Shown piece after piece: positions 31,878 to 60,029 of a stretch of 61,034 nt of DNA (its first letter is position 1; the number at the start of each line of letters is the position of its first letter). The position numbers and the translations under genes were made by a program. The stretch is from an uncultured Acidobacteriota bacterium (GTDB taxonomy: Bacteria > Acidobacteriota > CAIWXX01): the NCBI GenBank assembly GCA_903916735.1, contig CAIWXX010000133.1, positions 1 to 61,034 of the forward strand, in the 5' to 3' direction. The notes below the pieces were generated by a model, which saw only the letters and a program-made list of their open reading frames with translations, searched no databases and had not been told where the DNA came from.

Positions 31878-31898
31878 TGTGGAAAAATCTGTGGAAAT
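31878..31898 (-). promoter_or_regulatory. Pair of DnaA boxes upstream of dnaA
   Basis: TGTGGAAAA (31878-31886) and TGTGGAAAT (31890-31898) are spaced 12 bp start to start, about one helical turn. They lie about 50 bases before the dnaA start, so they may also autoregulate dnaA. Confidence 0.7.
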
Positions 31899-31945
31899 TC
31901 TTAACGTAAGAAAAAATTCATATTTATTTAACATTATCTCATATT

Positions 31946-33265
31946 ATGAGGATTGAAACTGTGAATGCTTGGGACAGGGCTCTGAAAGCACTCGCAACAG
32001 AAATCGAGCCGCTGGACTTCAACACCTGGATCAAGCCGATTGTCTTTGTCGGGCAAAAAGATGATTCAATCCATCTGGAGGTTCCAAGCCCAACCTTCAA
32101 AGAGAGGGTCGAGAACTCATTTGGAGAAAAAATCATCAGGGCCCTTCAACAGGTTTCACATATCACAAACGTGGTATTTTTTGTGAGGATCGTATCTGAG
32201 AAAAAGGCTCCGATCGAGAACTTCTCTCCGGTTTCCGCACCTCCTGCCGAAACGGGGCTGAATTCCCGCTATACATTCGATAAGTTCGTTGTCGGAGCTA
32301 GCAATCAATTTGCGCACGCAGCCGCGATGGCCGTTTCGAAATCCCCGGGTCAATCGTACAATCCCCTTTTCATTTATGGAGGTGTCGGACTGGGCAAAAC
32401 ACATCTCCTCAATGCAATCGGAAATCATATACACCAGACCTATGCCGGACTGAATGTTATCCTGATGCCTTCGGTGAGCTTCATGAACGAGTTCATCAAT
32501 GCGATGCAGAAGGAACGCATCCCGGAGTTCAGGATGAAATTCAGATCTGTCGATGTACTGCTCATCGACGATATTCAATACATTGCAGGAAAGGGAAAAA
32601 CGAGTCAGGAATTCTTTTTCGCCTTTAATCATCTTCACGACCGGCGCAAGCAAATTGTCATCTCAAGCGATTCGGCACCGAAAGATATCCGCGACCTTGA
32701 GGAACGACTTCACTCACGTTTCGAGTGGGGACTCGTAGCAGACATCCGTCCACCTGATCTCGAAACGAAAATAGCCATCCTAAAAAGAAAAGCCAACATA
32801 GATAACATCGATCTGAACGACGATGTGGCCCTTTTCGTTGCCAGCAAAATCAAATCCAATATTCGTGAGTTGGAGGGCGCTCTCACGCGCCTCGCAGCCT
32901 TTGCATCTCTAAAGGGTGTTGAAATCAGCATGGCATTGACAAAAGAAGTTCTGCGGGACTTCATCAACCTGGAAGAAAAAGTCATCACCGTTGAATTGAT
33001 CCAAAAGGTGGTTGCCGAAGAATACTCTCTCAGAATCACCGAACTGAAATCCAAAAACAACGCCCAGAAAATTGCTTTCCCTCGCCAAGTGGCGATGTAT
33101 ATTTCGAAGGAATTGACAGAAGATTCACTCCCTGAAATCGGAAAAGCATTCAGCGGAAAGCACCATTCAACCGTCATTTATTCCATCGCCAAGATTGAAG
33201 CTCTCCGCAAGTCCGATCCGGAATTTAACAAACAAATCAACAGCATAATTGAAAGATTTCGCTAG
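31946..33265 (+). CDS. dnaA: Replication initiator DnaA
   Basis: A 439-residue AAA+ initiator that binds DnaA boxes and melts oriC. Domain I (about 1-85, LDFNTWIKPI) recruits helicase. A short linker of about 20 residues is domain II. Domain III has Walker A GGVGLGKTH (145-153), Walker B VLLIDDIQ and the sensor region HDRRKQIVISSD. Domain IV ends with the DNA-binding signature AFSGKHHSTVIYSI. DnaA boxes flank the gene on both sides. Confidence 0.98.
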   Translation: MRIETVNAWDRALKALATEIEPLDFNTWIKPIVFVGQKDDSIHLEVPSPTFKERVENSFGEKIIRALQQVSHITNVVFFVRIVSEKKAPIENFSPVSAPPAETGLNSRYTFDKFVVGASNQFAHAAAMAVSKSPGQSYNPLFIYGGVGLGKTHLLNAIGNHIHQTYAGLNVILMPSVSFMNEFINAMQKERIPEFRMKFRSVDVLLIDDIQYIAGKGKTSQEFFFAFNHLHDRRKQIVISSDSAPKDIRDLEERLHSRFEWGLVADIRPPDLETKIAILKRKANIDNIDLNDDVALFVASKIKSNIRELEGALTRLAAFASLKGVEISMALTKEVLRDFINLEEKVITVELIQKVVAEEYSLRITELKSKNNAQKIAFPRQVAMYISKELTEDSLPEIGKAFSGKHHSTVIYSIAKIEALRKSDPEFNKQINSIIERFR

Positions 33266-33469
33266 GTTTTAGATAATTGTGGATATGATAATTAGAATGA
33301 GAACGCTTATCGGTCAGTGGCAGAGGATTTTAACAGTCACACCGATGTTTTCCTGGATATACAGACCGTTTTATCAACAGGCAAAATCACACATGACAAA
33401 CGGAAACAAACGGTTTTTTGTGTTATCAACAACCCTTCTTAACCCTTTTATTAAAATCTAATTAAAAAA
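33266..33469. other. Downstream oriC module (dnaA-dnaN spacer) with likely unwinding element
   Basis: This spacer contains DnaA-box-like 9-mers ATATCCACA (reverse strand, 33279-33287), TTATCAACA (33371-33379) and TTATCAACA (33423-33431). The last box is followed by a strongly AT-rich run to the dnaN start (33432-33469), a good candidate for the DNA unwinding element. Boxes beside an AT-rich run downstream of dnaA resemble the incC/DUE arrangement of bipartite origins. Confidence 0.72.
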
Positions 33470-34582
33470 ATGGAATTCACAGTAAAGAAATCTGAGCTCG
33501 AACACAACCTGCAATTGATGCAAGGAGTTGTGGAAACCAAAATCACGATGCCTATTCTGGCGAACATACTCATCCAGGCTGAAGATGAGCAGGTGCGTCT
33601 CAAAGCCACTGACCTGGAGGTTGGTATCGAGACGACGATGCCATGCAATCTGAAAAGCCCGGGATCAACGACTATCAATGTTAAGAAACTCTATGAATTT
33701 GTCAAGAGCCTCCCTGATGACGAAATTCATTTTGCCCGGGAGTCCGATACACGGATTAATATTACATCCAAGAACGTTGTCTTCAAGATTGCGGAAATGC
33801 CATCGGTCGAGTTTCCACGGCTGCCTGATTTTCCAGTCGATGGCAATTTGCGACTGAAAGGGCTTCTTTTTTGCGATCTTCTCAAAAAGATTTCGTTTAA
33901 CTTGGTCGTTGACGATAAGAAACAGCACCGTGGAAGTCTTTTTGTCATGACGCCGGATTCGATCATGCTAGTCGCTACCGATGGTCACCGAATGACATAT
34001 ATCAAGAAAGAACAGGAATCATTCGATTTACCTGTGGATCTTCCGGAATACCGTCTGTTGCTGAATCGCAAGGCTATTCAGACGATTCTCCGTATTCAAC
34101 CAAGCGAAGAGATTGAAATGTCGCTCGGCGAGAATCACATCTTTTTCCGTATCGGATCGACGATAGTATCGTCCAGACTTCTGGAACTCAAGTTCCCGAA
34201 ATATGACAAGGTTATTCCCCGAGGCAATGACAAGTTCCTGAAAATTGGCGTTGATTCATTTCTGATCAGCCTGAAGAGAGCCTGTCTCGTGACGAATGAT
34301 AGGGCTCATCCTGCACAGATTACGATGAGTGGGCATCAGGTGGAGCTCCGTTCGATCGGCGCTGAGATTGGGAGTGAGCACAGGGAGCCGCTTCAAGCGG
34401 AATACGATGGAGAAGATCTGGAGATACGCTTCAACGCGCAGTATCTCATCGATTTCCTGCAGGTGGTCGGTTGTGAGCATATCAGGATGGAGTTGAAGGA
34501 CGCCGATCGAGCCGTTCTCATCAGGCCGATGGGTGAAATGTCCTATGAGTATTTATACGTCCTGATGCCGATGAGGATATGA
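33470..34582 (+). CDS. dnaN: DNA polymerase III sliding clamp (beta subunit)
   Basis: A 370-residue clamp made of three similar domains. The N-terminal LEHNLQLMQGVVETKITMPILANILIQAE, the middle VVDDKKQHRGSLFVMTPDSIMLVATDGHRMTY and the C-terminal EYLYVLMPMRI are typical; the MPMR-type C-terminus forms part of the peptide-binding pocket. It encircles DNA and tethers polymerase and repair proteins. recF, which often follows, is missing; gyrB comes next after 77 bp. Confidence 0.97.
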   Translation: MEFTVKKSELEHNLQLMQGVVETKITMPILANILIQAEDEQVRLKATDLEVGIETTMPCNLKSPGSTTINVKKLYEFVKSLPDDEIHFARESDTRINITSKNVVFKIAEMPSVEFPRLPDFPVDGNLRLKGLLFCDLLKKISFNLVVDDKKQHRGSLFVMTPDSIMLVATDGHRMTYIKKEQESFDLPVDLPEYRLLLNRKAIQTILRIQPSEEIEMSLGENHIFFRIGSTIVSSRLLELKFPKYDKVIPRGNDKFLKIGVDSFLISLKRACLVTNDRAHPAQITMSGHQVELRSIGAEIGSEHREPLQAEYDGEDLEIRFNAQYLIDFLQVVGCEHIRMELKDADRAVLIRPMGEMSYEYLYVLMPMRI

Positions 34583-34602
34583 TCGCCATCATATTCCTCT
34601 GA

Positions 34603-37065
<2,463 letters not shown>

Positions 37066-37088
37066 GGAAACCCGGAGAACCCTGAACT

Positions 37089-39629
37089 ATGGAACCGATC
37101 GAGCAGAAGATACCTGTCAACATCGAAGATGAGATGCGCCACGCGTATCTTGACTACGCCATGAGCGTCATCATCGGGCGGGCCCTGCCGGATATCCGCG
37201 ATGGTTTGAAACCGGCTCACCGACGAATCCTCTATGCGATGTTCCGCGAGGGACTTCTTTCAAACCGCAAGTACTCAAAGTGCGCCGGTATCGTCGGCGA
37301 GGTTTTGAAGAAATACCATCCCCATGGTGATGCCGCCGTTTACGACACACTGGTCCGAATGGCGCAGGACTTCAACATGCGGTATCTGCTCGTTGATGGT
37401 CAGGGAAATTTCGGCTCGATCGATGGAGATCCGCCCGCTGCATATCGGTATACCGAGGCTCGTCTGACAAAACTGGCCGAAGTCCTCATGGAGGATATCG
37501 ACAAGGAAACGGTCGATTTCCTTCCAAATTTCGATGAGACAACAACCGAGCCCCGCGTGCTGCCGGCTCGCTATCCCAATCTGCTCGTGAACGGCTCCGA
37601 AGGAATTGCCGTCGGCATGGCGACGAAAATTCCACCGCACAATCTCGGCGAGGTGATTGACGGGACGGTCCATCTGATCGAGAATCCCGAAGCGACGCTC
37701 GAAGACATGATGCGCTTTATTCCAGCGCCGGATTTCCCGACGGGTGGGTTCATCTGCGGTGTTGAAGGCGCCGCACAAGCCTATCGGACCGGCCGTGGGC
37801 AGGTCATCACACGGGCACATGCGGTCACGGAAAAACTCGGCAAGGGCGATCGCGAAATGATCGTGATCACGGAAATCCCTTACCAGGTCAACAAAGCCCG
37901 TCTCATCGAGAAGATTGCCGATCTGGTTCGCGAAAAAAGGATCGAAGGAATCACGGATCTGCGGGATGAGTCGAGCCGAGAAGGGATGCGGATCGTCATC
38001 GAATTGCGCCGCGATCAGGAACCGGCAATTGTCCTGAACAACCTCTATCTTCACACCCAGCTTCAAACATCGTTCGGCATCATCCTTCTATCCATTGTCA
38101 GCGGCCAGCCGCGAACTCTTCCTCTCCTCGATATGCTGCGCCTCTTTATTCAGCACCGCAAAGAGGTTGTTCGGCGCCGGACGGAGTACGAGCTGAGAAA
38201 AGCCGACGCTCGTGCTCACATCCTCGACGGTCTGCTCATCGCCCTTGACAACCTCGATCGAGTGATCGCTCTCATTCGCGCATCGAAAACGGTTGACGAG
38301 GCACGAAGCGGACTCATGTCCTCCTTTTCCCTGACGCGGATCCAGGCTCAGGCCATCCTCGACATGCAACTCCAAAAGCTGACTGGGCTCGAACGCGAAA
38401 AGCTCCAGCAGGAGTATGCCGAGGTTCAGGCGGCCATCGCTCGATACAAAGAGATTCTTGCGAGTGGGTCATTGCTCCTCAATATTGTCCGTGACGAGCT
38501 GCTTGAGGTCCGCAAGGATTTCGCCGATCCGCGGCGCAGCCAGATCATCGGACCGATTAATGGAATCCGCACAGAGGAATTGATTACAGAAGAGGAGATG
38601 GTCATTACCGTCACTCATTCCGGCTATATCAAGCGGACGCCCATCACGACCTATCACAGCCAGAAACGCGGAGGCAAGGGCCGGATCGGCATGCGCATGA
38701 AGGAAGAGGATTTCGTTGATCACCTCTTCATCGCATCGACTCACAGCTATATCCTGTTTTTCACCGACCGTGGAAAAATGTATTTGTTGAAGGTTCACGA
38801 GATTCCGGATGTTGGAAGTGCGGCGCGCGGGAAGGCGATTGTCAATCTGATCGGAGTGGCGATGGCCGCGACGAGCGATGGAGCGCCTGTGGCTGCTGAG
38901 CGCGTTCGCGCACTGCTGGCGACAAAGGAGTTCAGTGAAGATCGCTTTGTCATCATGGCGACAAAGAACGGCATCGTTAAGAAGACTCAGCTGGCGGCGT
39001 TTGCCAATGCGCGGGCCAGCGGCATCATCGCCCTCGGCATCGAAGAAGGCGATGAATTGCTCGATGTCAAACTGACCGATTCGCAGAGCGAGGTGCTCAT
39101 CGCGACCAAACTCGGCCAATGTATCCGGTTCTCCGAAACCGATGTTCGATCGATGGGACGCACGGCGATTGGCGTCTATGGAATCCGGCTTGATGAAAAT
39201 GATTGCGTCATCGGAATGGATGTTATTGCGCCTGCTGAGACACGCACACTTCTCACGGTGACACGCAACGGGTATGGAAAAAGGACGCCGCTTGAGGAGT
39301 ACCGCCTGCAGGGACGGGGCGGAAGCGGTATCATCAATATCAAGGTCACCGAGAAGAATGGTGATGCAATCGGAATCGCATGTGTCGGGGATACCGATGA
39401 GATCATATTCATCACAACACAGGGCATGATCATTCGCATGCGGGCCTCCGACATCTCCACGATTGGTCGTGCGACTCAGGGTGTCCGCGTGATGGATCTT
39501 GAAGAAGGCGACGAGCTCTCAGCCATCGCGAAGTTGCCGGAGCCCGAGGAAGAGGCGGCTGATGAAAATGGTGAGTCCGAATCGGAGCCGCAGCCCCAAG
39601 AGCCAAATGGAAATGATGATGTCTCATGA
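37089..39629 (+). CDS. gyrA: DNA gyrase subunit A
   Basis: An 846-residue breakage-reunion subunit. The catalytic Tyr121 is in [10 protein letters not shown]. The C-terminal beta-pinwheel carries the GyrA box as QKRGGKG, confirming gyrase rather than topoisomerase IV. The quinolone-resistance region reads [11 protein letters not shown]: Ala82 replaces the Ser that is residue 83 in E. coli, while the acidic Asp86 (E. coli 87) is kept. The tail is a long acidic Glu/Asn-rich extension. The next gene overlaps its 3' end. Confidence 0.98.
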
Positions 39630-40371
39630 TGGCTGCGTGGCCGGAGCACGACTAGGATACGGGCGTCTTCTTTGGCTCATCAGTGCCATTGCACTCGCCT
39701 GGACAGGCTCCCTTTCCGCGCAGGATTTCTGGGTGGACCAGCCGTATGCACAGTGGACGCAGGACGAATGCCAACAGCTGATATCGCGTGCAACCGTTCG
39801 GCCTTTCCCCTGGAAAAAGGATCTTGGTCGGAGTGGATTCGTCAGCAAGGGTGTTCTCGTCTGGTATTCTGAAACGGTATGGAAGGCGTTCTTCAAGACA
39901 CGGAATTTTTCGGATGATGAAGTGAAGAAACGCGCCGCTGAATGCAAACCGGCTCTTCTCATGGCGCTCTACTTCAAAGATGATCCCGGATACGATACCA
40001 TCTCATATCGAGCCAATTATTCGCCGCAGGAGCTTCTTGCATCGACACGCCTCGATAATGGCCGGGGCGCCGTCATCCCTCCGTCGCCGCAGATGCCTGA
40101 CTGCAAGCCATTCATCGATAAATATACGATTGTATTCTACTTCCCAATCACACCTGCGCTCTCCGTCTTTCTGGAACGGGCGGATCTGATCACCTTTGAA
40201 TGCGCCGGGTTGGGGATCAGCCAGACCTTCAATCTGGACGAGATGCAGATCAACGGCCTGAGGGATACTCACTGGCGAGTCGGCCCGCAATTGCCGGCTC
40301 AGCCTTCCGGAAAGCGGGTGGTTCAGCCTCTGCCTTTTAAGGTTTTTCCAGAGCCGGGAACAGGGCAATGA
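39619..40371 (+). CDS. Secreted protein of unknown function, coupled to gyrA
   Basis: The start ATG 39619 lies 11 bp inside the end of gyrA and leads into a signal peptide (hydrophobic [19 protein letters not shown]). A longer frame from 39499 is rejected because it would be buried in gyrA. The mature part of about 215 residues begins [11 protein letters not shown] and contains [29 protein letters not shown] and [12 protein letters not shown]. The pattern of an aromatic-rich W-x-DE opening with a mixed beta core recalls families common in Acidobacteriota, but no domain is recognised with confidence. It overlaps the Ser/Thr kinase gene by 4 bp, so the pair is translationally linked. Confidence 0.78.
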
Positions 40372-42014
40372 CATCGATCATCGGTCGTATCATCGACGGC
40401 AAATACCAGATCCTCGATAAAATCGGCCAAGGTGGCATGGGAGAAGTCTATCGCGCCCGGCACGTCATGATGGATCGCACGGTCGCGTTGAAACTCCTCC
40501 GGTTTCATTTGACCGAAGATGAAGAAGCTCTGCGAAGATTCCAGCAGGAGGCAAAAGCGGCGAGCCGTATCGAACATCCGAATGCCGTGGTCATTTACGA
40601 TTTCGGCCGCGCCGATGAGGGGCTCTGCTATATCGCGATGGAGTATATCGAAGGGGTGAGTCTCAAGCAGGTGCTGAAGGACGTTGGCCCGATGCCGGCT
40701 GAGCGCGCCGTGCCGATCATCAAACAGATCTGCAGCGTCCTTGCCGAAGCACATCGGCATGGAGTTATCCATCGGGATATCAAGCCTGAAAATATTATGC
40801 TCTGCCGGAAGGGCAACAAGGACGACGTCGTCAAGGTCCTCGACTTCGGGATCGCCAAAATCCTGAAGGATGAAGGATCGGCTGATATGACGAAAACAGG
40901 TATCGTCTTCGGCACGCCAAAATATATGTCGCCCGAACAGATCCAAGGAAAACAGCTCGATGGACGCTCCGATATCTATGCGCTCGGGTGCGTCATTTAC
41001 GAGATGTTCACGGGCCGCCCTCCATTCGAAGGCGACGCCGACCTGGATCTTATGCTGAAGCACTTGCACAACGATCCAAAGCCCATGCATGAAACGGCGC
41101 CACAGGTTTCTGTCACATCGGAGCTCGAACAGGTCGTCCTGAGGGCGTTGAACAAGGAAAGCGAGAAGCGACTCTCAGCCGACGAGCTTGCTCATGAGCT
41201 GGATCTTGCCATCACTGTGAAGATGGACCGGCAGCAGAAGCCGCCGGCGAAGACCGAAGCGGAGCCGGCTCCATCGCAGCAACCTGCTTCGAGCCCTCTG
41301 CCAGTGACCGTTGTGGCGCCATCGCTATCGGCCTTTCCGGCTACCTGGACGGAGAAAACATCGATGGGCGATGTGCCAGCAGCCCCTCCCGCCGCTGCAC
41401 CGGTGCAACCGCCAATCCCGACGCAACGATCTTCCAACATCCTGTTGCCGATCATCGTCATCCTTGCCTTTGGTGTTGTTATTGCGACAACGATCGGTGG
41501 ATATCTCTACCTGAGATATCGAAGTCACAGAGGAATCAGCTCTTTTTTGCAGGGTATGACAACGCCAGGACAAATCCAGACTCCCCAGCAAGGACAAGCA
41601 ACCGGCACTCAGAATGCCAACTCAACAACAGGCGGCGCTATTGAGCCTCCTCCCACGACACTTCCGACGGATAATTCGACGATGCCTCCGGTACAGCAGC
41701 CGAATACCGAAAATCCCAATCAAAAGACCATTGCATCAATGCCACGCTTCCAGCGCCTCTCCAATGATGCCGTCAAGGAAGTTCAGAATGGAAGGCCGGA
41801 ACAGGCGTATCGATTGTTCGCCGAAGCGATCCGCCAACAACCCGATTCAGCGGAGCTCCATTTCAATCTCGCTCAGGTGTTCGTCATCCAGAGGAAAAAT
41901 GCGGAGGCGATCGAAGAATTACGGCTTTATTTGCAATATTTTCCCGATGCTCCTGACAGGTCGCAAGTCGAAGAACAGATCCAAGAATTGCAGGAAGATG
42001 TTCGATCCCGATAA
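40368..42014 (+). CDS. Membrane Ser/Thr protein kinase with C-terminal TPR
   Basis: A 548-residue Hanks-type (PknB-like) kinase. The glycine loop IGQGGMGEVY, Lys42, the catalytic loop HRDIKPEN (His135-Arg-Asp137), DFG at Asp159 and GTPKYMSPEQ are all intact, so it should be active. A Pro/Ala-rich linker (about 285-355) leads to a transmembrane helix at about 358-382. Outside, a Gln/Thr-rich stretch precedes TPR-like repeats (about 455-540: ELHFNLAQVFVIQRKNAEAIEELRLYL). It probably couples a periplasmic TPR to cytoplasmic phosphorylation. No PP2C phosphatase is adjacent. It overlaps the secreted protein gene by 4 bp. Confidence 0.93.
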   Translation: MTSIIGRIIDGKYQILDKIGQGGMGEVYRARHVMMDRTVALKLLRFHLTEDEEALRRFQQEAKAASRIEHPNAVVIYDFGRADEGLCYIAMEYIEGVSLKQVLKDVGPMPAERAVPIIKQICSVLAEAHRHGVIHRDIKPENIMLCRKGNKDDVVKVLDFGIAKILKDEGSADMTKTGIVFGTPKYMSPEQIQGKQLDGRSDIYALGCVIYEMFTGRPPFEGDADLDLMLKHLHNDPKPMHETAPQVSVTSELEQVVLRALNKESEKRLSADELAHELDLAITVKMDRQQKPPAKTEAEPAPSQQPASSPLPVTVVAPSLSAFPATWTEKTSMGDVPAAPPAAAPVQPPIPTQRSSNILLPIIVILAFGVVIATTIGGYLYLRYRSHRGISSFLQGMTTPGQIQTPQQGQATGTQNANSTTGGAIEPPPTTLPTDNSTMPPVQQPNTENPNQKTIASMPRFQRLSNDAVKEVQNGRPEQAYRLFAEAIRQQPDSAELHFNLAQVFVIQRKNAEAIEELRLYLQYFPDAPDRSQVEEQIQELQEDVRSR

Positions 42015-49702: not shown

Positions 49703-49849
49703 ATGATTGATGCCGACATGGATGAATTCCTGATCGCAGCGGTTATGATCTCAAAACAAATTCTGGAATCGATCGATAATGTGATTCCTGATCAAGCGGC
49801 ATTGTGCGTGTATAATAGGGTCGCGGAATGCACATGCGGATATTCATAA
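49703..49849 (+). CDS. Possible 48-residue protein upstream of transglycosylase gene
   Basis: The ATG at 49703 has a very good ribosome site (AAGGAGAGGG, eight bases before). The product begins MIDADMDEFLIAAVMISKQI and is acidic and helical, ending in CTCGYS. It overlaps the start of the transglycosylase gene by 22 bp in another frame, which could couple their translation. No family is recognised. Confidence 0.45.
   Translation: MIDADMDEFLIAAVMISKQILESIDNVIPDQAALCVYNRVAECTCGYS
49811..49816 (+). promoter_or_regulatory. -10 element directly before the transglycosylase start
   Basis: TATAAT is a perfect -10, ending 11 bases before ATG 49828 and 17 before ATG 49834. The -35 region is weak. If used, the transcript would be leaderless or nearly so. 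Confidence 0.35.
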
Positions 49850-52164
49850 CTCTCTTTTCATGCCTCATCGGCGTTGCCCCCACTGTGCTCGGAGCAAAGC
49901 TTGAGGAATTGACGGCGCAGGTTCGGACATTCCAGGCGGAGGGAGCCACCGCCAAGGCTCTCTATGCGCTGCAGGAAATAGAACGGACGGACGCATCGGC
50001 CTTTGAGGTCAACAATTACCCATACCTGGCCGGACTGCTCGCTAGCCAAATCGGAAAAGATGATCTGGCGAAGCACTACCTTGAAATGGCGCAGCGGTCG
50101 AGAGAGCTTTTTGAGTACGCCGCTCGCGGCCTCGCCGCTCTCTCGCGTCAACGGGGGAATGCTGGAGAGGAACGGCGCTATCTTGAGCAACTGATGAACC
50201 GCCGCGGTTCCATCCTGGCTGATGATGCCGCGTATGAGCATGCAATGAGCTACTTTCGCGAAGGGTCCTTTGAGAAGGCGCTCGCGGAATTGACGGGCAG
50301 GAATCTGGCCGGGAACGATCTTCTATTTGAACGCATCCAGTGCCTGCGGGCGCTCGGGCGCGACGCCGAGGCATCCAGGCTCGTCAGCACCGCCCTCCGT
50401 TCACGACATCAATCCGATGGCCTGCTGAAAGCACTCGGACTGATTGAGCTGAATGAAGATTCACAGGTGATTGATCATCTGCCGACAGATGAGATCACGC
50501 GACGCGGGGATCTGTATTATGAGAACCGTAATTTTGAACGAGCTCTTTACTATTACCGTATCCTCTATGATCAACGGGGTGTCACCAGCCAGAAGCTCAT
50601 CTACATGATGGGGCGAACTCTGGATGGAGCGGGGCGAAAGGCCGATGCGCTCGCCTGGTTTGCACAAGCAGAGGCATCGCTCGGTTTCAGCTACAAGTTC
50701 TGGGCTGTGTGGTTTCAGGGAGAAATTCTGTTCAAGCGGCAGGATTTTACACGGGCTGCAGAGACTTACCGTCGCGCACTCGAATTGGCCTCAACCTCGC
50801 AGCAGGACCTCTCTGTGCGCCTCCGCATCATGAGCTGTCAGATGCTGTCCGGCCAAAAGGAAAGAGCTTTAGCGACGATGACGGAAATCTTGGAACGGCA
50901 TCGGAGCATGTTTTCCTGGATGAGATTCGTCGCGGTCAAGGAGCTCGTCGACCTTGGAAAACTCGCCGATGCCGTCGAGAAAGTCCAGGCGATGCTGACG
51001 AGTGAACCCATGAGTTCGCGTGCGGAGCTGCTTTACTGGAGGGGCGCGTTGCAGGAGCAGGTGGGCAACCTGGGGGAGGCGATTGCCTCGTATGACACGA
51101 TCCTCCGGCTTCATTCGCAGAGTTTCTACGCGAAACTAGCCGAAACGCGCCTGGCCGAGACCTCGCTGGATTCCCTCACTAGCACCTACGCTGAAGACCT
51201 TGCCCGTGCCAAGGCCTCTCTTTCCGCCGGCCAGATTGAAGAGAGTCGAAAAGAACTCTCATATCTCTATCATCGATATCCTCTCCGCCAGGTCGAAGTG
51301 GCCAGGATTCTGCAGGATGTCTACCAAAGGCTGCCGCGATATCGCGATTTTCTGGTCTTCGATCTACTGCAGCCACGACCGTTACTCACCGCCGCGGTTC
51401 CGGATTCGAAGCCGCGAAGCCGCGCTGAGGATCTCGCCTTTCTCGGCTGCTTCGATGATGCCGCTAAAGAAATGGACGCTGCTCGCGGAGGGCGCCTCGT
51501 TTCGATCTCGACGCTCCTCACGATTGCGGATTATTATCAACGTGGAGGCCTGCCGTATCTCGCCATGCGGCGCGCTGAATCGCTGATGAGCCTCACACCG
51601 GGCGGCTACGAGTTTGATCTCCTTCCTCGACGAATGAAAGAACTCCTTTACCCGCTGAGTTATTCTACGATTGTAGAAAAATCAGCCCCTTCTGATCTCG
51701 ACATTGCGCTCTTTTACTCCCTCATACGTGAAGAGAGTCGTTTTAATACCCGCGCACGCAGCCCGGCCGGCGCGCGAGGACTTCTTCAGTTTATTCCGAG
51801 CACCGCATCGCTCATCATCAAAGAGATGGGACGAGGGACCCTCCGGGATGACGACCTCTATGATCCAGATCTGTCGATCCAGATCGGCTCCTATTATGTG
51901 GCCAAGCTGACGCGGCAATTTTCGCAGAAACCGGCCCCTGCACTTGCTTCTTACAACGCCGGCGAGGAACAGGGGAAACTCTGGCTCCGGATGGCCGGGA
52001 CCGGTGAACTCCACGAATACCTGGCCGAAGTTAACTATCCGGAAACACGGAACTATATAATGAGGATCATGATCGGTTATTATCGGTATCGGTCTCTCTA
52101 TCCGAGTCTGGCGGAACGCGATCAGGGGGCAACGGGAGGGGCACGGCCGACAGGCGGCTCGTGA
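49828..52164 (+). CDS. slt: Soluble lytic murein transglycosylase (Slt type)
   Basis: A 778-residue exported enzyme that cleaves peptidoglycan to 1,6-anhydro-muropeptides. A signal peptide (RIFITLFSCLIGVAPTVLGA) is followed by a long superhelix of TPR-like repeats (about 25-600). The C-terminal lysozyme-like domain has catalytic Glu636 in IREESRFNTRA, then SPAGARGLLQFIPSTA, YDPDLSIQIGSYY and LASYNAGEEQG. It is the first large gene of an envelope operon with the DUF4388-like and peptidase genes. Start at 49828 or 49834; no ribosome site is evident. Confidence 0.93.
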   Translation: MHMRIFITLFSCLIGVAPTVLGAKLEELTAQVRTFQAEGATAKALYALQEIERTDASAFEVNNYPYLAGLLASQIGKDDLAKHYLEMAQRSRELFEYAARGLAALSRQRGNAGEERRYLEQLMNRRGSILADDAAYEHAMSYFREGSFEKALAELTGRNLAGNDLLFERIQCLRALGRDAEASRLVSTALRSRHQSDGLLKALGLIELNEDSQVIDHLPTDEITRRGDLYYENRNFERALYYYRILYDQRGVTSQKLIYMMGRTLDGAGRKADALAWFAQAEASLGFSYKFWAVWFQGEILFKRQDFTRAAETYRRALELASTSQQDLSVRLRIMSCQMLSGQKERALATMTEILERHRSMFSWMRFVAVKELVDLGKLADAVEKVQAMLTSEPMSSRAELLYWRGALQEQVGNLGEAIASYDTILRLHSQSFYAKLAETRLAETSLDSLTSTYAEDLARAKASLSAGQIEESRKELSYLYHRYPLRQVEVARILQDVYQRLPRYRDFLVFDLLQPRPLLTAAVPDSKPRSRAEDLAFLGCFDDAAKEMDAARGGRLVSISTLLTIADYYQRGGLPYLAMRRAESLMSLTPGGYEFDLLPRRMKELLYPLSYSTIVEKSAPSDLDIALFYSLIREESRFNTRARSPAGARGLLQFIPSTASLIIKEMGRGTLRDDDLYDPDLSIQIGSYYVAKLTRQFSQKPAPALASYNAGEEQGKLWLRMAGTGELHEYLAEVNYPETRNYIMRIMIGYYRYRSLYPSLAERDQGATGGARPTGGS

Positions 52165-52174
52165 GTGTGACCCG

Positions 52175-53530
52175 ATGCAAGAGATCAGCGAGCAGGGGTC
52201 CTTCGACAGCACGACCTTGGGTGATTTGCTGGCGCGGATCTGGAAGTGGCGCTTCACGGGCAGTCTCCGGGTGGATTATCGCAAGTCGATGCGGATCCTC
52301 ACTTTCAAAGAAGGCGATGTCGTTGGAATCACATCGGATCGGAGAGAAGACTCAATCGATGAGTATATTCGTCGAAGCGGTGCATTGAGCGAAGAGCAGA
52401 TCGCGACGGTTCTCGAAAGAAAGCCACTGGAGCAGGAGACCGCCACAGCCTTTACCGAATCAGGCATGCTGACGGCGAAAGAGTGGGGGGAGATTACAAA
52501 GCGCCAGATCGTCACCGTGATGGCCTCGATGCTCCCCGCCGGCGCCGATGCCCGATATCTCATACAACCCTCTCGGATCGAATGGAACGGGCCGACTTTT
52601 CCGATCCCGGAGATCCTGCTGGCAACGATCATGGCATGTGAAGATCGTCACTGGATCGCCGAGAAACTCGGGATGGAAATAATTCTCGATCCCGGTGTCC
52701 CACTCGATGCGACGCTCCTGCAGCCATACGCGGAGGCCGTGCGGCTCCTGAACCTGGCCGATGGAGAACAATCGGTTGAAGATATTTGCCGGAGTTCCTC
52801 TCAGGATAATTTTTTTGTTTGCAAGTTTCTCTATGCCCTGGAAATTCTCGGCGCGTTGCTCAGGCGGCAAGACCCGTCTGAGCGAAAAAAGGGGCGGCGA
52901 CTTCTGATCCGTAAAGAAGAGCCCCCGGCCAGTGGACATACTCCTTTCCCCTTGTTGGAATCGCTGGCCGCCAAACAACGCCGATATCTTCGACCTCTCT
53001 GGTTCGCGGGAAGTCTCATCGCCATCGCAGGACTCCTTGTCACGGCAGCGTTCTTCTATCACAGATGGAGGAATCGCCCGACGCCTCCCACTCCTGAAGC
53101 CACAGTGAAAGCGCCGACATTTTTTGCAGAAACTCAGCCAGGCTCTTCCCCTCAAACGGCACCTCAATCACAGCCGGAGGCGAAAGTTGTGGATCCGCTG
53201 GTGGCTGCCGCACGCGGCGGCGATATCGATCTTGCCGCTACAATCAGCAGAGAGCGCCTATTGAAGGCGGGGCTCAACTTCTATGTCATCGTCCTTGAGA
53301 TTGACTGCCTTCCCAAATCGGTTCAGGAGGCCTTTTTAGCCGGACATGAGAGCTCATCCCTGTTTGTCATATCGACCATGTACAGGGGTCGGAAATGCTA
53401 TAATGTTTGCTGGGGTCTTTATCGAGCATGGACGGTGGCGCAGAACGACACAGCTCATCTTCCCGAGTATTTTCGCCGCCAGGGAGGATATAAAGTTGTT
53501 CTGCTTGCCGATTTGCTCGTGACAGATTGA
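52175..53530 (+). CDS. DUF4388-like membrane protein with SPOR-like C-terminus
   Basis: A 451-residue protein. Residues about 8-120 resemble the DUF4388/PatA N-terminal domain (TTLGDLLARIWKWRFTGSLRV, KSMRILTFKEGDVVGITSD, LSEEQIATVL). A helical middle part follows to about 235. A single transmembrane helix lies at about 275-295, then a Pro/Thr/Gln-rich linker. The last about 85 residues (NFYVIVLEIDCLPKSVQEAF, FVISTMYRGRKCYNVCWGLY, YFRRQGGYKVVLL) have the alternating strand pattern of a SPOR-like peptidoglycan-binding domain. It may link a cytoplasmic signalling domain to wall binding. It starts 10 bp after slt; its stop overlaps the possible TTG start of the next gene. Confidence 0.75.
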   Translation: MQEISEQGSFDSTTLGDLLARIWKWRFTGSLRVDYRKSMRILTFKEGDVVGITSDRREDSIDEYIRRSGALSEEQIATVLERKPLEQETATAFTESGMLTAKEWGEITKRQIVTVMASMLPAGADARYLIQPSRIEWNGPTFPIPEILLATIMACEDRHWIAEKLGMEIILDPGVPLDATLLQPYAEAVRLLNLADGEQSVEDICRSSSQDNFFVCKFLYALEILGALLRRQDPSERKKGRRLLIRKEEPPASGHTPFPLLESLAAKQRRYLRPLWFAGSLIAIAGLLVTAAFFYHRWRNRPTPPTPEATVKAPTFFAETQPGSSPQTAPQSQPEAKVVDPLVAAARGGDIDLAATISRERLLKAGLNFYVIVLEIDCLPKSVQEAFLAGHESSSLFVISTMYRGRKCYNVCWGLYRAWTVAQNDTAHLPEYFRRQGGYKVVLLADLLVTD

Positions 53531-54882
53531 ACCCGATGTCGTGGATTCGCTTGGAAATTGCGATCTGGCTTCTTATTGGAAGCATGCCTCTTCAGGCCGA
53601 TATCCTGCATTTTAAGAATGGCGGTCGGATCGAATGCGATGAAGCCTGGATCGAGGGCGACACGGTTTGTTACCGGATCTCAGAGGGAACACTCGGCTTC
53701 CCTCTGCCATTGCTCGAACACATCGAGAAAACCGATGCGCCGGCCATTTCGAGTTCTCCGCGGCCTCCACTCCCCCCTGAACAACCCGTGGCCCGACCCT
53801 GGAGGCCGCTCCCGGTAGATACGAAGAACCCTGCCTATCGACGCGCCGAGGAAGCTCTGGCCCGCCGTGATTACGAAGCTGCGATCCAGGCATTGACCGG
53901 CGTCGAATCATTACCGGCCGGCCTGATGCTCGGCTATGCCTATACGCGGCTTCGGCGGTATCAAATGGCATTGACTGTTCTGGAACCTTATCAGGTCCAG
54001 AGCAGCGACAACGCCGATCTCAACTATCTTCTCGGCGAGTGCCACTATAATCTCGGCCATGACGAGCAGGCTATCAAATACCTCGAACAGTCGCTTCACA
54101 TCGAAGACAATCCCGCGATCCGCGATCTTCTGGAACGGATCCAGAGGCAGAATGCGATTATTGGTTCAACGGATTTTCTGAGGAGCACGCACTTTCTCCT
54201 GAGATATGATCGCGCGAGCGATGCACGACTCGCCCAGCGCATTCTCGATGTGCTAGAGAAATCATTTGTGAACCTGCAGAAAGTCCTTTCCTTTTCGCCG
54301 GAGGAAGAAATCCAGGTGATCGTCAGTGGACGAAGACAGTTTTACGATATCACGCGAGCGCCTGAATGGAGCCTTGGGATCAACGATGGCCGCATCTTCC
54401 TTTCGATCGGCGGAATTGATGATCTTAATGATGTATTGGAACGGTCGATCTCCCATGAGCTGGCACATACCTTTCTCCATGATTTGACACATGGAAATAC
54501 GCCGGTGTGGTTGAACGAAGGGCTGGCCATGTATCTGACAGGTGAAAACCAGGATGACTATACGCAAATCCTCGCGCAACGCGCCTCTGCGGACAATCTC
54601 ATACCGCTCGCAGCCCTCCAGAGTTCCTTCAAGGGGTTTGCTGGGGCGGAGAGTGCCGAGCTGGCCTATGCCGAAGCATTGTTGGCCACAAATTACCTTG
54701 TGAGTCTCTACGGATTCAACGAACTGAACAGACTGCTTGGTCTTCTGGCACAAGGAATCCCATTTGAGGAAGCCCTCCATGAGAGATACAAGCTTGACGT
54801 GTTGGAACTTGAGCGCAAGGTGAAGGAGTTTCTTCTGTCAGCGGCCGCGCGCTATCCGAGTGAAGGAATCAGGGTCCGGTAA
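53527..54882 (+). CDS. Secreted gluzincin (peptidase MA-like) metallopeptidase with TPR
   Basis: Exported by a signal peptide (IRLEIAIWLLIGSMPLQA). An SH3-like opening (ILHFKNGGRIECDEAWIEGDTVCYR) is followed by TPR repeats at about 105-205 and a peptidase domain from about 215. The zinc site is HELAH at 310-314, with Asn330-Glu331 (WLNEGLAMYL) supplying the third ligand, the gluzincin pattern. The start could be TTG 53527, which overlaps the upstream stop (TTGA), or ATG 53536, three residues later. Substrate is unknown; wall peptides or envelope proteins are plausible from the operon. Confidence 0.88.
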   Translation: MNPMSWIRLEIAIWLLIGSMPLQADILHFKNGGRIECDEAWIEGDTVCYRISEGTLGFPLPLLEHIEKTDAPAISSSPRPPLPPEQPVARPWRPLPVDTKNPAYRRAEEALARRDYEAAIQALTGVESLPAGLMLGYAYTRLRRYQMALTVLEPYQVQSSDNADLNYLLGECHYNLGHDEQAIKYLEQSLHIEDNPAIRDLLERIQRQNAIIGSTDFLRSTHFLLRYDRASDARLAQRILDVLEKSFVNLQKVLSFSPEEEIQVIVSGRRQFYDITRAPEWSLGINDGRIFLSIGGIDDLNDVLERSISHELAHTFLHDLTHGNTPVWLNEGLAMYLTGENQDDYTQILAQRASADNLIPLAALQSSFKGFAGAESAELAYAEALLATNYLVSLYGFNELNRLLGLLAQGIPFEEALHERYKLDVLELERKVKEFLLSAAARYPSEGIRVR

Positions 54883-55000: not shown

Positions 55001-56038
55001 TCAGGCTTCTAACAGGAGCTTTCTGACAGTTTGATCCCATGTCAATTGCGCCATTCTGGCGCGACCCGCTTCTCCAAGCCTTTCCGCTAATCCTTTATCG
55101 CCGGCGACTTCGGAGACAACTGATGCGATGCTGGAAGGATCGGCTTTGACGACGAATCCGTTACGCTGATGTTCGACAAGCTCGGCCGCCCCGCCACTAT
55201 CCTCGCACGTGATGACAGGCTTCCCAGACGCGAATGCCTCGACACTCACAAATCCGAAATCTTCATTCCGCGGACCAAAAAAAACAGCCCGACAGCGAGC
55301 GTAATAGTTGAGGAGTTCTTCTTCGGAAATGTGTCCGACAAGAGAGATGCGTTCTTCTAGCCCGAGGTCCTTGATGAGCGAGGCGAGCGCGCCATGCTGT
55401 TCCCCATCTCCGGCGATCACCGCGCGCAAGCCACATGTTTTGAGCGAAAGTGCCTTGATGAGAAGATCTTGGCGCTTGAGCGGCGTGAGGCGCGAGGGGG
55501 CGAAGATGAAATCATCGAAAGATTCACATCGATAAGCTCGCTGAGGGGGCGGCGGATAGAGGACGTCACTGGCAAGGTTGCCCCATTGGAGAAGCTGCCC
55601 CTGGACGGTTTGTGACAATGCATAGAGTTTTGTGAGACGCCGGAGAAAATAGCCGTCGGCCGTGTGAATGGACATTCTCCGGATGCGCTCCTTCAGAGCG
55701 CCTTTCCAGCTCAGTCGTGCCTTCCAATCCGGCCAAAGATCGTAGTACTCCCGCATCCGATGTAACAGCCAGCAGACATGTCGTTCATGACGGAGCGCAT
55801 AGCTTGGAAAGCGCAAAGAGATGATCTGGTCGATCCTCGCATTATCGCCGGCCAGGCCGACATCGGTCAAGTAGGTGGCGGCGTAGGCCGCGAATTGGCG
55901 TCCAAATCTGTTTTGAGGCGTGTAGAGGGTCGCAGCTTCGATCCCGTACTCTCGCAGCGCCTTCACCAAACTATCAGCGATGATGCGATGTCCGCCATGG
56001 ATGAACGGTACATCCGATGTCGCAACCAAAACCTTCAT
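55001..56038 (-). CDS. GT4-family glycosyltransferase
   Basis: A 345-residue GT-B glycosyltransferase. MKVLVATSDVPFIHGGHRIIADSLVKAL is the acceptor-domain opening. The donor domain has FIFAPSRLTPLKRQDLLIKAL, AVIAGDGEQ, RISLVGHISEEELLNYYARCRAVFFGPRNEDFGFVSVEAFASGKPVI with the E-x7-E pattern, and GGAAELV. It overlaps the membrane TPR gene by 4 bp and is the last gene of the ATPase-TPR-GT4 operon. Substrate unknown; the coupling suggests it serves whatever that operon builds. Confidence 0.9.
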   Translation of the reverse strand: MKVLVATSDVPFIHGGHRIIADSLVKALREYGIEAATLYTPQNRFGRQFAAYAATYLTDVGLAGDNARIDQIISLRFPSYALRHERHVCWLLHRMREYYDLWPDWKARLSWKGALKERIRRMSIHTADGYFLRRLTKLYALSQTVQGQLLQWGNLASDVLYPPPPQRAYRCESFDDFIFAPSRLTPLKRQDLLIKALSLKTCGLRAVIAGDGEQHGALASLIKDLGLEERISLVGHISEEELLNYYARCRAVFFGPRNEDFGFVSVEAFASGKPVITCEDSGGAAELVEHQRNGFVVKADPSSIASVVSEVAGDKGLAERLGEAGRARMAQLTWDQTVRKLLLEA

Positions 56039-57732
56039 GACGCGCCCGGTATCCCTTTCCGAGACATATCAATGACCGTTTCTCCAAGCCCCATCCCGTG
56101 TGCCGCCGGTTCCTGAGGTTGAGGCTCGGCGGACTTGAGCATCCGGTAACGGCTTTCAGCATCCATGAAATGAAAATCCTTCATAATAATGCCCTGATAG
56201 ATCTCAATCGCTTCGGTCTTCCGGCCGAGGACCTCGAGGACGCGCCCGAGGTGATAGGGCGCGTCCAGAGACTCCTCGGGGTCCAATGGCATACAAGTAG
56301 CCAGCCTCAGTTCCGGTTCGGCTAGTTCCGGTAGGCCTTTGGCCATGAATGATCGGCCAAGCAGATAGCAAACAGCGCCCGATGGCTCATGCCGCCTCTT
56401 CAGCTGCTGCAGGGTCTTGATGGCTTCGTCGATATTGTGTTCCTTCCAATGAATTCGCGCGAGCAACATGAGAGCTTCTTCATCATCGCCGGCATGCATT
56501 TCCAGAATCTGCCGTGCGCGCGTCATATCCTGCGATTCATAGCAGGATCGGGCAGCCTGGAGGGTCGTGTCTGGCGACTTGAGATAGGCCTCGATCGCCT
56601 CCTTCTTTTTTCCCGCGGAATCGAAAAGCTCGCCGGCCCTTCGATGCAGTCCGGCTTCGTCATAAAGCTGTGCTGCTCCGACCACATCGTGGAGCTCAAA
56701 TTCGGCAATTTCGGCGGCGCGCTGTAAATTCCCTTGGAGCCGAAAGAGGGACACCGCCTTTGCGTATTGCCGGGCCTTCACATAGAGCTCCGGGGACGGC
56801 GCTTTTCCAGCGCTCTCGATCGCTTGCAGCGCCTGTTCAGGCTCTCCGCACTTTTCCAAAAGTTCGGCGGCGCGTTCGTGTTTGCCAAGTTGAAGACACA
56901 GCTTGGCGGCGGCTGCGATCGTGCCCGATCGTTCGTACATGACCAGCGCATCTTCCAGGCGACCGGCTCGAAAGTACATCTCTCCGGCTCTGAAGAGGTC
57001 CCCTGCCTGCTTGTACAGCTCCGCGGCGCGAAGCCATTGCCCTCCCCTCTGGGCCATGTCGGCGCTCTTTTCAAAACTTCCTTCCTTCTCGTATAGGTGC
57101 CCTGCCTGAACAAACTTGCCTTCATCCTCTAATTGCAGAGCGTTAACGGCCTGTTTTGGCTTCTCAGTCCCGGCCATATCGTTGAGAAAACCAAGACCGA
57201 TAAAAAACAGGATGACAGCGTAATAGAACCAGTAGATCAATGGAATGGCAATCGCGGCCAGCTGCAGCCTCTCATGCACGATCTCTTGCCAGAAGAGATT
57301 GACGAAAAAGGATCCAAGGATCATAAGGCCCATCGGCCCATAGACATGGATCATTCCGAGATCTGCAATCAATCGATGCTTGGTTTGGACCAGCCTGAAA
57401 AGGAGGTGGATTACGAGAGGCGGCAGCGCATAAACAGCAACATCAGCAAGGAATCTGAAAAAGCCCGTTGTCGAGATTCGCCCGAAGGCGAGGAAGTAAA
57501 CGGCGCAGGCGGACATGAGGAAGAGAATTCGAGAAAGGCTCTGCGACTTGAAGCCGAAGATGAAAGTGCAGGCAGTCGTGAGAAGGGCCGCCATCATCTG
57601 GAGGAGGCTTTCTTCGAATTGCGATCCAGCAAGACAGATCACCAGGATGATGCTGAAAGGGAGGATGGCCAGGAGAATCTCACGAGGGGATTTCCCTTGA
57701 AGGAATTTATCGAATTCCGGGCGCATAATCAT
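56035..57732 (-). CDS. Polytopic membrane protein with long TPR domain
   Basis: A 565-residue protein. The first about 190 residues contain about six hydrophobic spans (for example ILLAILPFSIILVICLAG, LSRILFLMSACAVYFLAFG, GPMGLMILGSFFVNLFW, LIYWFYYAVILFFIGLGFL). From about 200 to 540 there are degenerate TPR/SEL1-like repeats rich in AAELYKQAGDLFRAGEMYFRAGRLEDAL-type units. The repeats are probably cytoplasmic and would suit scaffolding of the ATPase encoded next to it. It overlaps both neighbours by 4 bp, a strong operon sign. No known machine component is recognised. Confidence 0.8.
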   Translation of the reverse strand: MIMRPEFDKFLQGKSPREILLAILPFSIILVICLAGSQFEESLLQMMAALLTTACTFIFGFKSQSLSRILFLMSACAVYFLAFGRISTTGFFRFLADVAVYALPPLVIHLLFRLVQTKHRLIADLGMIHVYGPMGLMILGSFFVNLFWQEIVHERLQLAAIAIPLIYWFYYAVILFFIGLGFLNDMAGTEKPKQAVNALQLEDEGKFVQAGHLYEKEGSFEKSADMAQRGGQWLRAAELYKQAGDLFRAGEMYFRAGRLEDALVMYERSGTIAAAAKLCLQLGKHERAAELLEKCGEPEQALQAIESAGKAPSPELYVKARQYAKAVSLFRLQGNLQRAAEIAEFELHDVVGAAQLYDEAGLHRRAGELFDSAGKKKEAIEAYLKSPDTTLQAARSCYESQDMTRARQILEMHAGDDEEALMLLARIHWKEHNIDEAIKTLQQLKRRHEPSGAVCYLLGRSFMAKGLPELAEPELRLATCMPLDPEESLDAPYHLGRVLEVLGRKTEAIEIYQGIIMKDFHFMDAESRYRMLKSAEPQPQEPAAHGMGLGETVIDMSRKGIPGAS

Positions 57733-59183
57733 TCGAACTCGCTTCGCAGCGGAAGCACGCGGAGGGACTCGTCCAGAGAGGTTTCGCCTTTGAAGGCAAA
57801 ATCCAGGCCGTTTTCATCCAGCGTTTTGATGCCGCTCGCACGAAACTCCTTATGGATCTGCTCGGATGTGGCCCGTTCAACGATCAATTTCCTCACAGAC
57901 TCATTGATTTCGAGAATCTCGAAAATCCCCTTTCTTCCAGCATACCCCTTCATATTGCACTTGGGACATCCAACGGGGCCATAGAATACGGCGTTTGCAG
58001 GAAATTTTCGATTAAGCTTGGCTTCCTGGCCGGGAGTTATTTGCTCGACGCGTCGGCAGTGGGGACAGAGTACTCGGACCAGACGCTGAGCCACGATGGC
58101 TGTTATGGCCGAGGCGACAGAATGAGGATCGACTCCCATTTCGATCAAGCGGAGAGGGACCCCGGCGGCGCTTTTTGCGTGCACCGTCGTGATGATGAGG
58201 TGTCCTGTCATGCCCGCTTGAATCGCGATGCGCGCCGTATCAAGGTCCCGAATTTCACCAACCATAATGATATCAGGATCTTGGCGCAACATCGTTCGCA
58301 AGCCTTTACCGAAAGTAAATCCTTGCCCCTCTTCGATCTGTGTTTGATTGATGTTGAGGAGGTCATACTCGATCGGATCCTCAAGAGTGTATATCGACAC
58401 TGTATTCTGGCTCAGCTTCAAGATCGCTCGCAGAGCGCAATATATGGTGGTCGTTTTTCCGGATCCTGTTGGGCCGGTAAGAATCACCATACCCTGAGGG
58501 CGTGAGAGGATGGATGTGAGTGTCGAGAGTTGCGCCGTCGTCAGGCCGATATGCTCCAACCCGAATTCCACTTCAGCCCTGTCTAGCAGTCGCATGACGA
58601 CGCGTTCGCCATGTAGTGTCGGCATGAATGCAATCCTAAGGTCCATCCGTCGATTTCCCACGGCGATATCGAAACGCCCGTCCTGGGGTTTGTCATGAAC
58701 ATATGTGACAAGTACCGATAGCACTTTCAATCGGTTTGTGAGGGCCTCCTTGAGATGGGCGGCGAGGTGAGCGACATCGGTGAGTATCCCGTCGATGCGA
58801 TAACGTACAGTCAGGAAATCACGGTACGGAACAAGGTGGATATCCGATGAATTCACAGCAACGGCTTGATGGATAATGTAATCGACGAGTTGAGGAATAT
58901 CAGGATTGGAGCTCCGATTGTATGTCCCGATCACTGCCTTGATTCTTTCCGGGTCATGCGGTTCAAAAGAACTGCGGTGAGGCGATGTAACCGGCACCGG
59001 GAGGAACGATCTCCGGATTGTCCGGACGAGAAGAACCACAAACCCGAGTCCCGCTGCTCCAATTCCAATGGTCCACATCAGTTGAAGAGGAATTTGTATG
59101 TCAAGCTTGGTGAGCACGAAAACGCACCCAGCCAGCGCCAAAAGGGTCATGAGGATAACAGCCGGCATCGATGAGGTTCTCAT
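57729..59183 (-). CDS. GspE/PilB-like ATPase with two N-terminal membrane helices
   Basis: A 484-residue type II secretion/type IV pilus-family ATPase. The core is complete: VNSSDIHLVPYRDFLTVRYRIDG, Walker A GPTGSGKTTT (237-246), TLEDPIEYDLLNINQTQI, Walker B DPDIIMVGEIRD, the His box TGHLIITTVHAKSA, and a zinc tetracysteine Cys373/376 and Cys406/409. The usual cytoplasmic N-terminal domain is absent; instead two transmembrane helices lie at about 7-25 and 35-54. A membrane-anchored ATPase of this class is unusual. It is the first gene of the operon with the membrane TPR protein and GT4. Confidence 0.9.
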   Translation of the reverse strand: MRTSSMPAVILMTLLALAGCVFVLTKLDIQIPLQLMWTIGIGAAGLGFVVLLVRTIRRSFLPVPVTSPHRSSFEPHDPERIKAVIGTYNRSSNPDIPQLVDYIIHQAVAVNSSDIHLVPYRDFLTVRYRIDGILTDVAHLAAHLKEALTNRLKVLSVLVTYVHDKPQDGRFDIAVGNRRMDLRIAFMPTLHGERVVMRLLDRAEVEFGLEHIGLTTAQLSTLTSILSRPQGMVILTGPTGSGKTTTIYCALRAILKLSQNTVSIYTLEDPIEYDLLNINQTQIEEGQGFTFGKGLRTMLRQDPDIIMVGEIRDLDTARIAIQAGMTGHLIITTVHAKSAAGVPLRLIEMGVDPHSVASAITAIVAQRLVRVLCPHCRRVEQITPGQEAKLNRKFPANAVFYGPVGCPKCNMKGYAGRKGIFEILEINESVRKLIVERATSEQIHKEFRASGIKTLDENGLDFAFKGETSLDESLRVLPLRSEFE

Positions 59184-59291: not shown

Positions 59292-60029
59292 TCAGGCAGA
59301 GCGATTAAAACCGTGCCGGATTAAGTTTGTGTTCCTTACAGGCAGGGCTTTCACAATTGTCGAACGGACATTTTCTGTCAGTATCTGACGATCGGTTGAG
59401 GGATCGACCGGGACAACCGGGTGAATTGTGACGCTCACTGGAGCCGCGGATCTCAGCCATGCCGACCCCTTCGGCAAGACGCGATGGCTTCCATCGATCG
59501 TGACAGGCAGAATGGGCAGGTTGTAGGTCAAAGCCAGGCGGAATCCACCGAATTTGAACAGTCCGGGCTGCCCGTCGTAACTTCTGGTGCCTTCAGGAAA
59601 GATCACCAGCGAGACGCCCTTTTTCACTTTCTCAGCAGCCAACATGAGTCCGCGAGCTCTTCCCTGCCGGCTCTTCCGGTCGATCGGTATATGGCCGGAC
59701 AACCACAGATGCCACCCCAAGAAAGGAATCATAAATAGGGGTTTCTTGGCCATAATCCGGAATTGAAGCGGCAGATATGCGAAGAGGATTGGAATGTCCA
59801 GGTGCGATTGGTGGTTCGCCATGACGATATAGGATGAGCCAGTATGAATGTTTTCCATGCCCTGCAGGCGAATCCGGACACCGCAGGTCACGAGGATACA
59901 TCGGGACCAATATCGTGCAATCACATGAGAAAGCCGTCCAGAAGGGCTGATGATCAGTGCGAGGAGGGACAGAGATCCCATGAACATCGTGTTGATGACG
60001 AGGATAGGAATTGCGTATAGCGATCGCAT
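59292..60029 (-). CDS. plsC: 1-acyl-sn-glycerol-3-phosphate acyltransferase
   Basis: A 245-residue membrane-associated acyltransferase that makes phosphatidic acid. The catalytic NHQSHLD motif (His73, Asp78), IPIDRKSRQGRARG and FPEGTRS (Glu146-Arg149 region) are the PlsC motifs in order. Hydrophobic N-terminal residues (about 6-28) anchor it to the inner membrane. It stands between the ATPase operon and the RDD gene with spacers on both sides. Confidence 0.92.
   Translation of the reverse strand: MRSLYAIPILVINTMFMGSLSLLALIISPSGRLSHVIARYWSRCILVTCGVRIRLQGMENIHTGSSYIVMANHQSHLDIPILFAYLPLQFRIMAKKPLFMIPFLGWHLWLSGHIPIDRKSRQGRARGLMLAAEKVKKGVSLVIFPEGTRSYDGQPGLFKFGGFRLALTYNLPILPVTIDGSHRVLPKGSAWLRSAAPVSVTIHPVVPVDPSTDRQILTENVRSTIVKALPVRNTNLIRHGFNRSA

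Follow-up and report, generated by a model that had tools for sequence, protein, structure and literature searches.

The locus described here raises the question of how an ATPase of the PilB/GspE type might be held at the membrane when the soluble N-terminal domain of its relatives is replaced by hydrophobic helices, and which protein such a motor might act upon. In the accessible text of a 2024 review (PMC11656802), PilB and GspE are motors of the cytoplasm that a stator, PilM or GspL, constrains, PilB docking in a socket formed by PilM; the word "transmembrane" is absent from the main text of this review. An earlier note on the 61,034-nucleotide stretch of DNA of an uncultured Acidobacteriota bacterium analysed here (hereafter, the window) had proposed that one such ATPase carries two N-terminal membrane helices, and had taken it for a self-anchored secretion or pilus motor. 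The gene was found in three genomes: that of the window (G000), an Acidobacteria metagenome-assembled genome (locus L043, contig C339 of genome G001) and Holophagaceae bacterium UBA1801 (locus L044). The two orthologues of the ATPase are 65-70% identical.

Domain content and catalytic motifs of the ATPase

The gene and the parts of its core are as follows:

57729..59183, minus strand: putatively membrane-anchored T2SSE (PilB/GspE-type) ATPase, 484 amino acids, ATG start
57759..58898, minus strand: N2 domain and RecA-like catalytic core (T2SSE, residues 96-475), by Pfam, PDB sequence match and fold match
58452..58475, minus strand: Walker A, GPTGSGKT (residues 237-244), by alignment
58245..58271, minus strand: Walker B and catalytic glutamate, IIMVGEIRD (residues 305-313), by alignment
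58056..58067, minus strand: first Cys pair of the tetracysteine site (373/376), by alignment
57957..57968, minus strand: second Cys pair of the tetracysteine site (406/409), by alignment

The Pfam family T2SSE (PF00437) matched residues 96-475 with 389.2 bits (cut-off 24.9), and neither Pfam nor NCBIfam placed an N1/MshEN (GSPII_E N) domain in the protein. GspE of Vibrio (E 6.6e-99) and PilB of Geobacter were the best matches in a PDB sequence search, all of them starting at query residues 93-95. Among the NCBIfam models, TIGR02533 (GspE) scored best with 450.8 bits, followed by TIGR02538 (PilB) with 424.8 bits, both far below the equivalog cut-offs of 630.25 and 675.65, respectively; on the PilB encoded by contig C120 of the same genome, TIGR02538 gave 780.3 bits.

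In an alignment of ten proteins, the catalytic residues and cysteines of Walker A, the Asp box (residues 266-272), Walker B with the catalytic glutamate, the His box (residues 326-336) and the Cys pairs were kept in all ten, with the Asp-box glutamate and both His-box histidines also retained. Cysteines 373, 376, 406 and 409, present in every row, agree with the tetracysteine zinc motif, which the accessible text of PMC5424180 gives as a rule of the PilB/GspE clade. Arginines 170, 183 and 198 were likewise invariant and correspond to R257, R271 and R286 of PilB as numbered in that text, the offset used for the PilB numbering being set by the N2 domain and by the catalytic glutamate (E310 here, E395 in PilB). 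By its cysteines and its core, the protein is a member of the T2SSE superfamily and of its PilB/GspE branch, and it is probably hexameric. It is neither GspE nor PilB proper, because it has no N1 domain, scores under the equivalog cut-offs and has no linked platform gene that could be found.

N-terminal helices and translation start

Upstream of the N2 domain, three further segments were distinguished:

59112..59168, minus strand: predicted transmembrane helix 1 (residues 6-24), by hydropathy; AlphaFold helix 6-26
59025..59081, minus strand: predicted transmembrane helix 2 (residues 35-53), by hydropathy; AlphaFold helix 33-60
58899..59024, minus strand: basic flank and linker (residues 54-95), partly of low model confidence, by charge count and AlphaFold

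In 19-residue windows, Kyte-Doolittle hydropathy reached 2.52 (residues 6-24) and 2.21 (residues 35-53), and the Wimley-White octanol sums of the two helices were -8.8 and -7.2 kcal/mol, as against -1.6 for the most hydrophobic window in the rest of the ATPase. The two helices are also the longest runs of the protein (23 and 19 residues) in which D, E, K, R, H, N and Q are all absent. Hydropathy, Pfam and the ten-row alignment agree with the initial observation that two N-terminal helices stand in place of the soluble domain beside intact motifs.

A normal start further downstream, with the helices encoded by a misassigned 5' extension, was not found in the homologues. All three proteins begin with Met-Arg, and in-frame stops precede the same ATG by 3-4 codons in L043 (TAG) and in L044 (TGA). 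Later start candidates are GTG 63 and 84 in the window gene, ATG 68 and GTG 61, 74, 76 and 85 in L043, and TTG 59 and ATG 60 only in L044; between the helices and the N2 domain, the three genes have no start codon in common. That the real protein is soluble, with translation beginning at one of the two GTG codons of the window gene, was consequently rejected as highly improbable, given the upstream stops, the common Met-Arg, the lack of a listed start codon between codons 60 and 110 of L044, and hydrophobic stretches that persist through strong sequence drift.

This drift is considerable: identity among the three orthologues is 24-38% over the first 62 alignment columns versus 67-76% from column 96 on, and despite it both hydrophobic stretches are free of charged residues in all three. 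The NG86 dN/dS over the N-terminal stretch was saturated, and for L043 against L044 above 1 (0.87 against 0.65); it therefore gives no proof of purifying selection on the sequence there. As far as the sequences tell, what is conserved at the N-terminus is hydrophobic character and position, and not visibly the sequence. Chance hydrophobicity was rejected because both helices recur in three of three orthologues despite the drift, and derivation of the helices from a known domain because the first 92 residues of each orthologue, searched alone, gave no Pfam family at cut-off.

Lysine and arginine residues within 25 residues of the helices number one before helix 1, one between the helices, and four, eight and three after helix 2 in the three proteins. 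Such a bias, read by the positive-inside rule, would place both ends of the ATPase inside and suggests a hairpin of N-in/C-in topology.

In the best of five AlphaFold models, computed with ten sequences (mean pLDDT 74, pTM 0.64), helices at residues 6-26 and 33-60 are followed by a linker of weak prediction and a core like that of PilB; this model is the only fair one, the other four being poorer (47.9-64.3), and in it residues 1-60 have a pLDDT of 44-63 by ten-residue block. Foldseek placed the core on PilB (5tsh_E) with a TM-score of 0.85 by target. In the accessible text of PMC5424180, the thrust of PilB points to the N2 side, and the proposal is that it drives PilC into the membrane; by analogy, helices that precede the N2 domain would leave the ATPase on its membrane-facing side.

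Orthologues and distribution

For the survey of related motors, 148 distinct T2SSE-like segments were examined, mostly from 60 genomes of the phylum, 146 of them with an in-frame stop upstream. The hydropathy filter had a threshold of 1.6 upstream of the N2 domain and required a Walker A match, so that motors with a broken P-loop fall outside the 148. Six segments passed, among them the three members of this family, which are the only ones with two helices. Two candidates, L040 and L048, were rejected since the helix disappears when they are read from the first Met, and a third, L095, since its single hydrophobic stretch sits within an N-terminal region of the usual length.

A profile built from the three sequences matched 29 of 396 genomes of the phylum at E up to 1e-110, and only G000 and its one family relative in the set, G001, over the full length from model position 1, the matches of the other 27 beginning at positions 44-98. 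L168 (start 44) and L169 (start 53) were not accepted as family members, being absent from the segments with predicted N-terminal helices. In 192 genomes of another phylum (centre G398), the same profile gave 50 matches at E up to 1e-104; none reaches back to position 1, the nearest being one that begins at position 23 in a 591-residue frame. Furthermore, a degenerate-peptide scan of an assembled-contig collection returned 11 loci, two of them with helices.

In a tree of 147 sequences, the three orthologues formed one clade (SH-aLRT 100) on a long stem (2.38). On account of the long-branch risk, no sister group was drawn and only the monophyly of the family itself was used. The suggestion that conservation of the helices across a clade would mark a new subtype holds in so far as they are kept in three genomes and one clade, but this clade is small. 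A PilB/GspE ATPase with N-terminal membrane helices was not found in the open literature, as covered by titles and the openings of abstracts, with subscription papers mostly outside. The self-anchored ATPase would be a new variant in the T2SSE superfamily, so far confined to one small acidobacterial lineage; the survey having drawn on open papers and barely reached beyond a single phylum, comparable proteins may occur in other lineages.

A membrane TPR protein encoded next to the ATPase

The ATPase gene has the following neighbours on its strand:

56035..57732, minus strand: putative partner of 565 amino acids with about six predicted N-terminal membrane helices and a TPR solenoid; the first 4 bases of its gene (ATGA) overlap the end of the ATPase gene
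55001..56038, minus strand: glycosyltransferase (GT4 type), overlapping the TPR gene by 4 bases; linked in two of three genomes
59292..60029, minus strand: PlsC-type acyltransferase, upstream; linked in two of three genomes, the L044 contig ending too near to tell

The TPR gene lies directly downstream of the ATPase gene in all three genomes, with the 4-base overlap in the window and in L044 and a gap of 47 bases in L043. Its product is 48% identical to each orthologue, and full-length homologues were found in only two of the 396 genomes of the phylum (G000 and G001) and in L044. The earlier note was right in its observation on the ATPase and had missed this conserved multi-helix TPR gene downstream. 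In the model of the TPR protein, 24 helices make up the solenoid and six N-terminal ones look like membrane helices; the membrane part is modelled poorly (pLDDT 36-67 by block). Fold searches with this model retrieved only generic TPR superhelices, repeat proteins and a small number of glycosyltransferases. Arginine, lysine and histidine abound in the loop that joins helices 4 and 5 of all three proteins; judged by this basic loop, the TPR part would be cytoplasmic and lie beside the motor. Adjacency in three related genomes hints at the TPR membrane protein as a partner of the ATPase.

On balance, we favour the reading that the ATPase is anchored by its own hairpin and works with the TPR membrane protein. 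Each subunit would be held to the inner membrane by a two-helix N-in/C-in hairpin and a flexible linker of about 35-40 residues, the hairpin standing in for a soluble N1 domain docked on a stator of PilM/GspL type. In a hexamer there would be twelve such helices, leaving from the face that the N2 domains of PilB turn towards the membrane, and the stator would then be the membrane itself. Movements of the pore, driven by ATP, would be passed, most likely, to the co-encoded TPR membrane protein, which may be a platform, an adaptor or a regulator. More tentatively, one may go further and regard the pair as a two-gene membrane machine, in which a hairpin-anchored ring of PilB/GspE type dispenses with PilC/GspF and PilM/GspL and the six-helix TPR protein moves or transmits; if true, this machine would be unlike the described type IV filament systems.

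Other genes of the window were also recorded. Convergent with the motor cassette, three adjacent genes at 49828-54882 (plus strand) encode a TPR-containing SLT transglycosylase, a DUF4388 protein and a Peptidase_MA/TPR protein. The gene at 40368-42014 (plus strand) combines a protein kinase domain with TPR repeats in one protein. Genes of chromosomal-origin type by Pfam (ParB, ParA, GidB, GidA, TrmE, R3H, YidC, DnaA, DnaN, GyrB and GyrA) occupy positions 22618-39629, and the cassette lies about 15-18 kb beyond this set on the same contig.

Platform genes and substitutions in the core

No platform (T2SSF: PilC/GspF) or pilin gene was found linked to the ATPase, the window covering about 57 kb downstream and the L043 contig about 23 kb upstream, and no linked PilT or gsp genes were found; as the contigs are short, there is a small probability that a nearby platform gene escaped notice. 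The genome of the window has 12 T2SSE matches and six T2SSF matches, the latter only on contigs C82, C120 and C165: C120 carries PilB, PilT and PilC in a row, C82 a PilB-like ATPase adjoining a GspF-like protein, and C165 a TadA-like ATPase with two T2SSF proteins. In the L043 genome, T2SSF genes occur only on contigs C144, C75 and C47, apart from the ATPase contig.

Two further sets of related proteins were seen in the genome of the window. On contig C94 (locus L176, 4215-5927 and 5937-7787, plus strand), tandem PilB-like proteins have a c-di-GMP (MshE-related) motif and CxxC pairs; Walker A is lost in both (GPHFNSVT, GPLFNGTP), making them apparent pseudo-motors. At 7848-9332 of the window (plus strand), a 495-amino acid PilT-family protein (TIGR01420, 457.9 bits, over the cut-off) has an N-terminal extension of about 135 residues and the P-loop GPTGCGKS.

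The core of the family was compared with 135 other PilB/GspE-like rows, nine PilT-like rows out of the 147 being left out. At 23 positions that are at least 80% uniform in these rows, all three members differ. They include, within the N2 domain, positions 118, 159, 160, 162 and 164 (E, D, I, E and R in the others versus V, V, T, V/I and D in the family) and position 337 beside the His box (N versus K). Residue 315, the equivalent of the PilB pore residue E400, is glutamate in 130 of the 135 versus D, P and D in the three members; the equivalent of PilB D398 is kept as D313 in acidic pore loop 1. According to the accessible text of PMC5424180, E400 of PilB shifts some 13 angstroms during the thrust, whose proposed target is PilC. 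Kept motifs together with 23 changed positions argue for a core that is probably active, but with altered surfaces.

These data bear on a rather unlikely reading, in which the protein serves the genome's own type IV pilus or T2SS-like machine as an accessory extension motor, anchored by its helices and docking in trans on PilC/GspF, with the TPR protein serving only in recruitment. The core is nearest to the GspE and PilB models, the genome offers the platform proteins of C120 and C82, and archaeal ATPase/TadC modules are reported, in the available part of PMC4858521, to work with pilins encoded in trans. Against this stand the scores far under both equivalog cut-offs, the D, P and D at the position of PilB E400, the fact that the platform systems have ATPases of their own, and the lack of an N1 domain for PilM. 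Of the proposed self-anchored secretion or pilus motor, self-anchoring is retained as the most economical reading, but a role in pili or secretion goes beyond evidence that includes no linked platform or pilin gene and an altered pore residue.

Flanking envelope genes

An improbable reading takes the ATPase for an envelope-biogenesis enzyme which, with the TPR protein, the glycosyltransferase and the PlsC-type protein, energises lipid or glycan handling rather than a pilin filament. It draws on the GT4 and PlsC genes that flank the ATPase on the same strand in the window and in L043, and on the overlap of the window glycosyltransferase gene with the TPR gene. However, neither gene was found on the L044 stretch, where the contig ends about 620 bases upstream of the ATPase and the downstream genes are unrelated. 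Moreover, we know of no lipid-acting member of the PilB/GspE ATPase family.

Comparison with known systems

The hairpin-anchored ATPase paired with a TPR membrane protein, which remains our preferred reading, can be set against the motors described so far. In the accessible text of a 2023 review (PMC10191384), it is suggested that PilMNOP may have scored as essential only because they stabilise both platform and ATPase. With a hairpin in the membrane, the anchoring would be direct, and a natural motor tied to the membrane would offer a simple test of whether the N1 domain only anchors and constrains. If the reading is true, it would also provide an instance of the PilB/GspE ATPase branch being recruited by a new partner in the membrane.

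The Tad motor TadA/CpaF and archaeal PilB4 (HVO_1160) belong to the same ATPase superfamily as the window protein, on which TIGR03819 scored 43 bits only; HVO_1160 also has extra terminal domains, for which the available passage of PMC4858521 does not state membrane helices. Solved GspE resembles the core of the window ATPase in fold and is its best sequence match in the PDB, and the best NCBIfam model (TIGR02533) is likewise that of GspE. GspE, however, meets GspL at the membrane via its N-terminal domain (accessible text of PMC11656802; title of 4pht), whereas the window ATPase is devoid of N1. Its core matches PilB, the type IVa pilus extension ATPase (Geobacter 5tsg/5tsh, Thermus PilF 5oiu), by sequence and by fold, and it shares with PilB, as far as the accessible descriptions go, the N2 and catalytic core fold, Walker A and B, the Asp and His boxes, the arginine fingers and the tetracysteine site. 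Unlike PilB, it has no linked PilC or PilT that we could find and, instead of an N1/MshEN domain, carries two predicted membrane helices.
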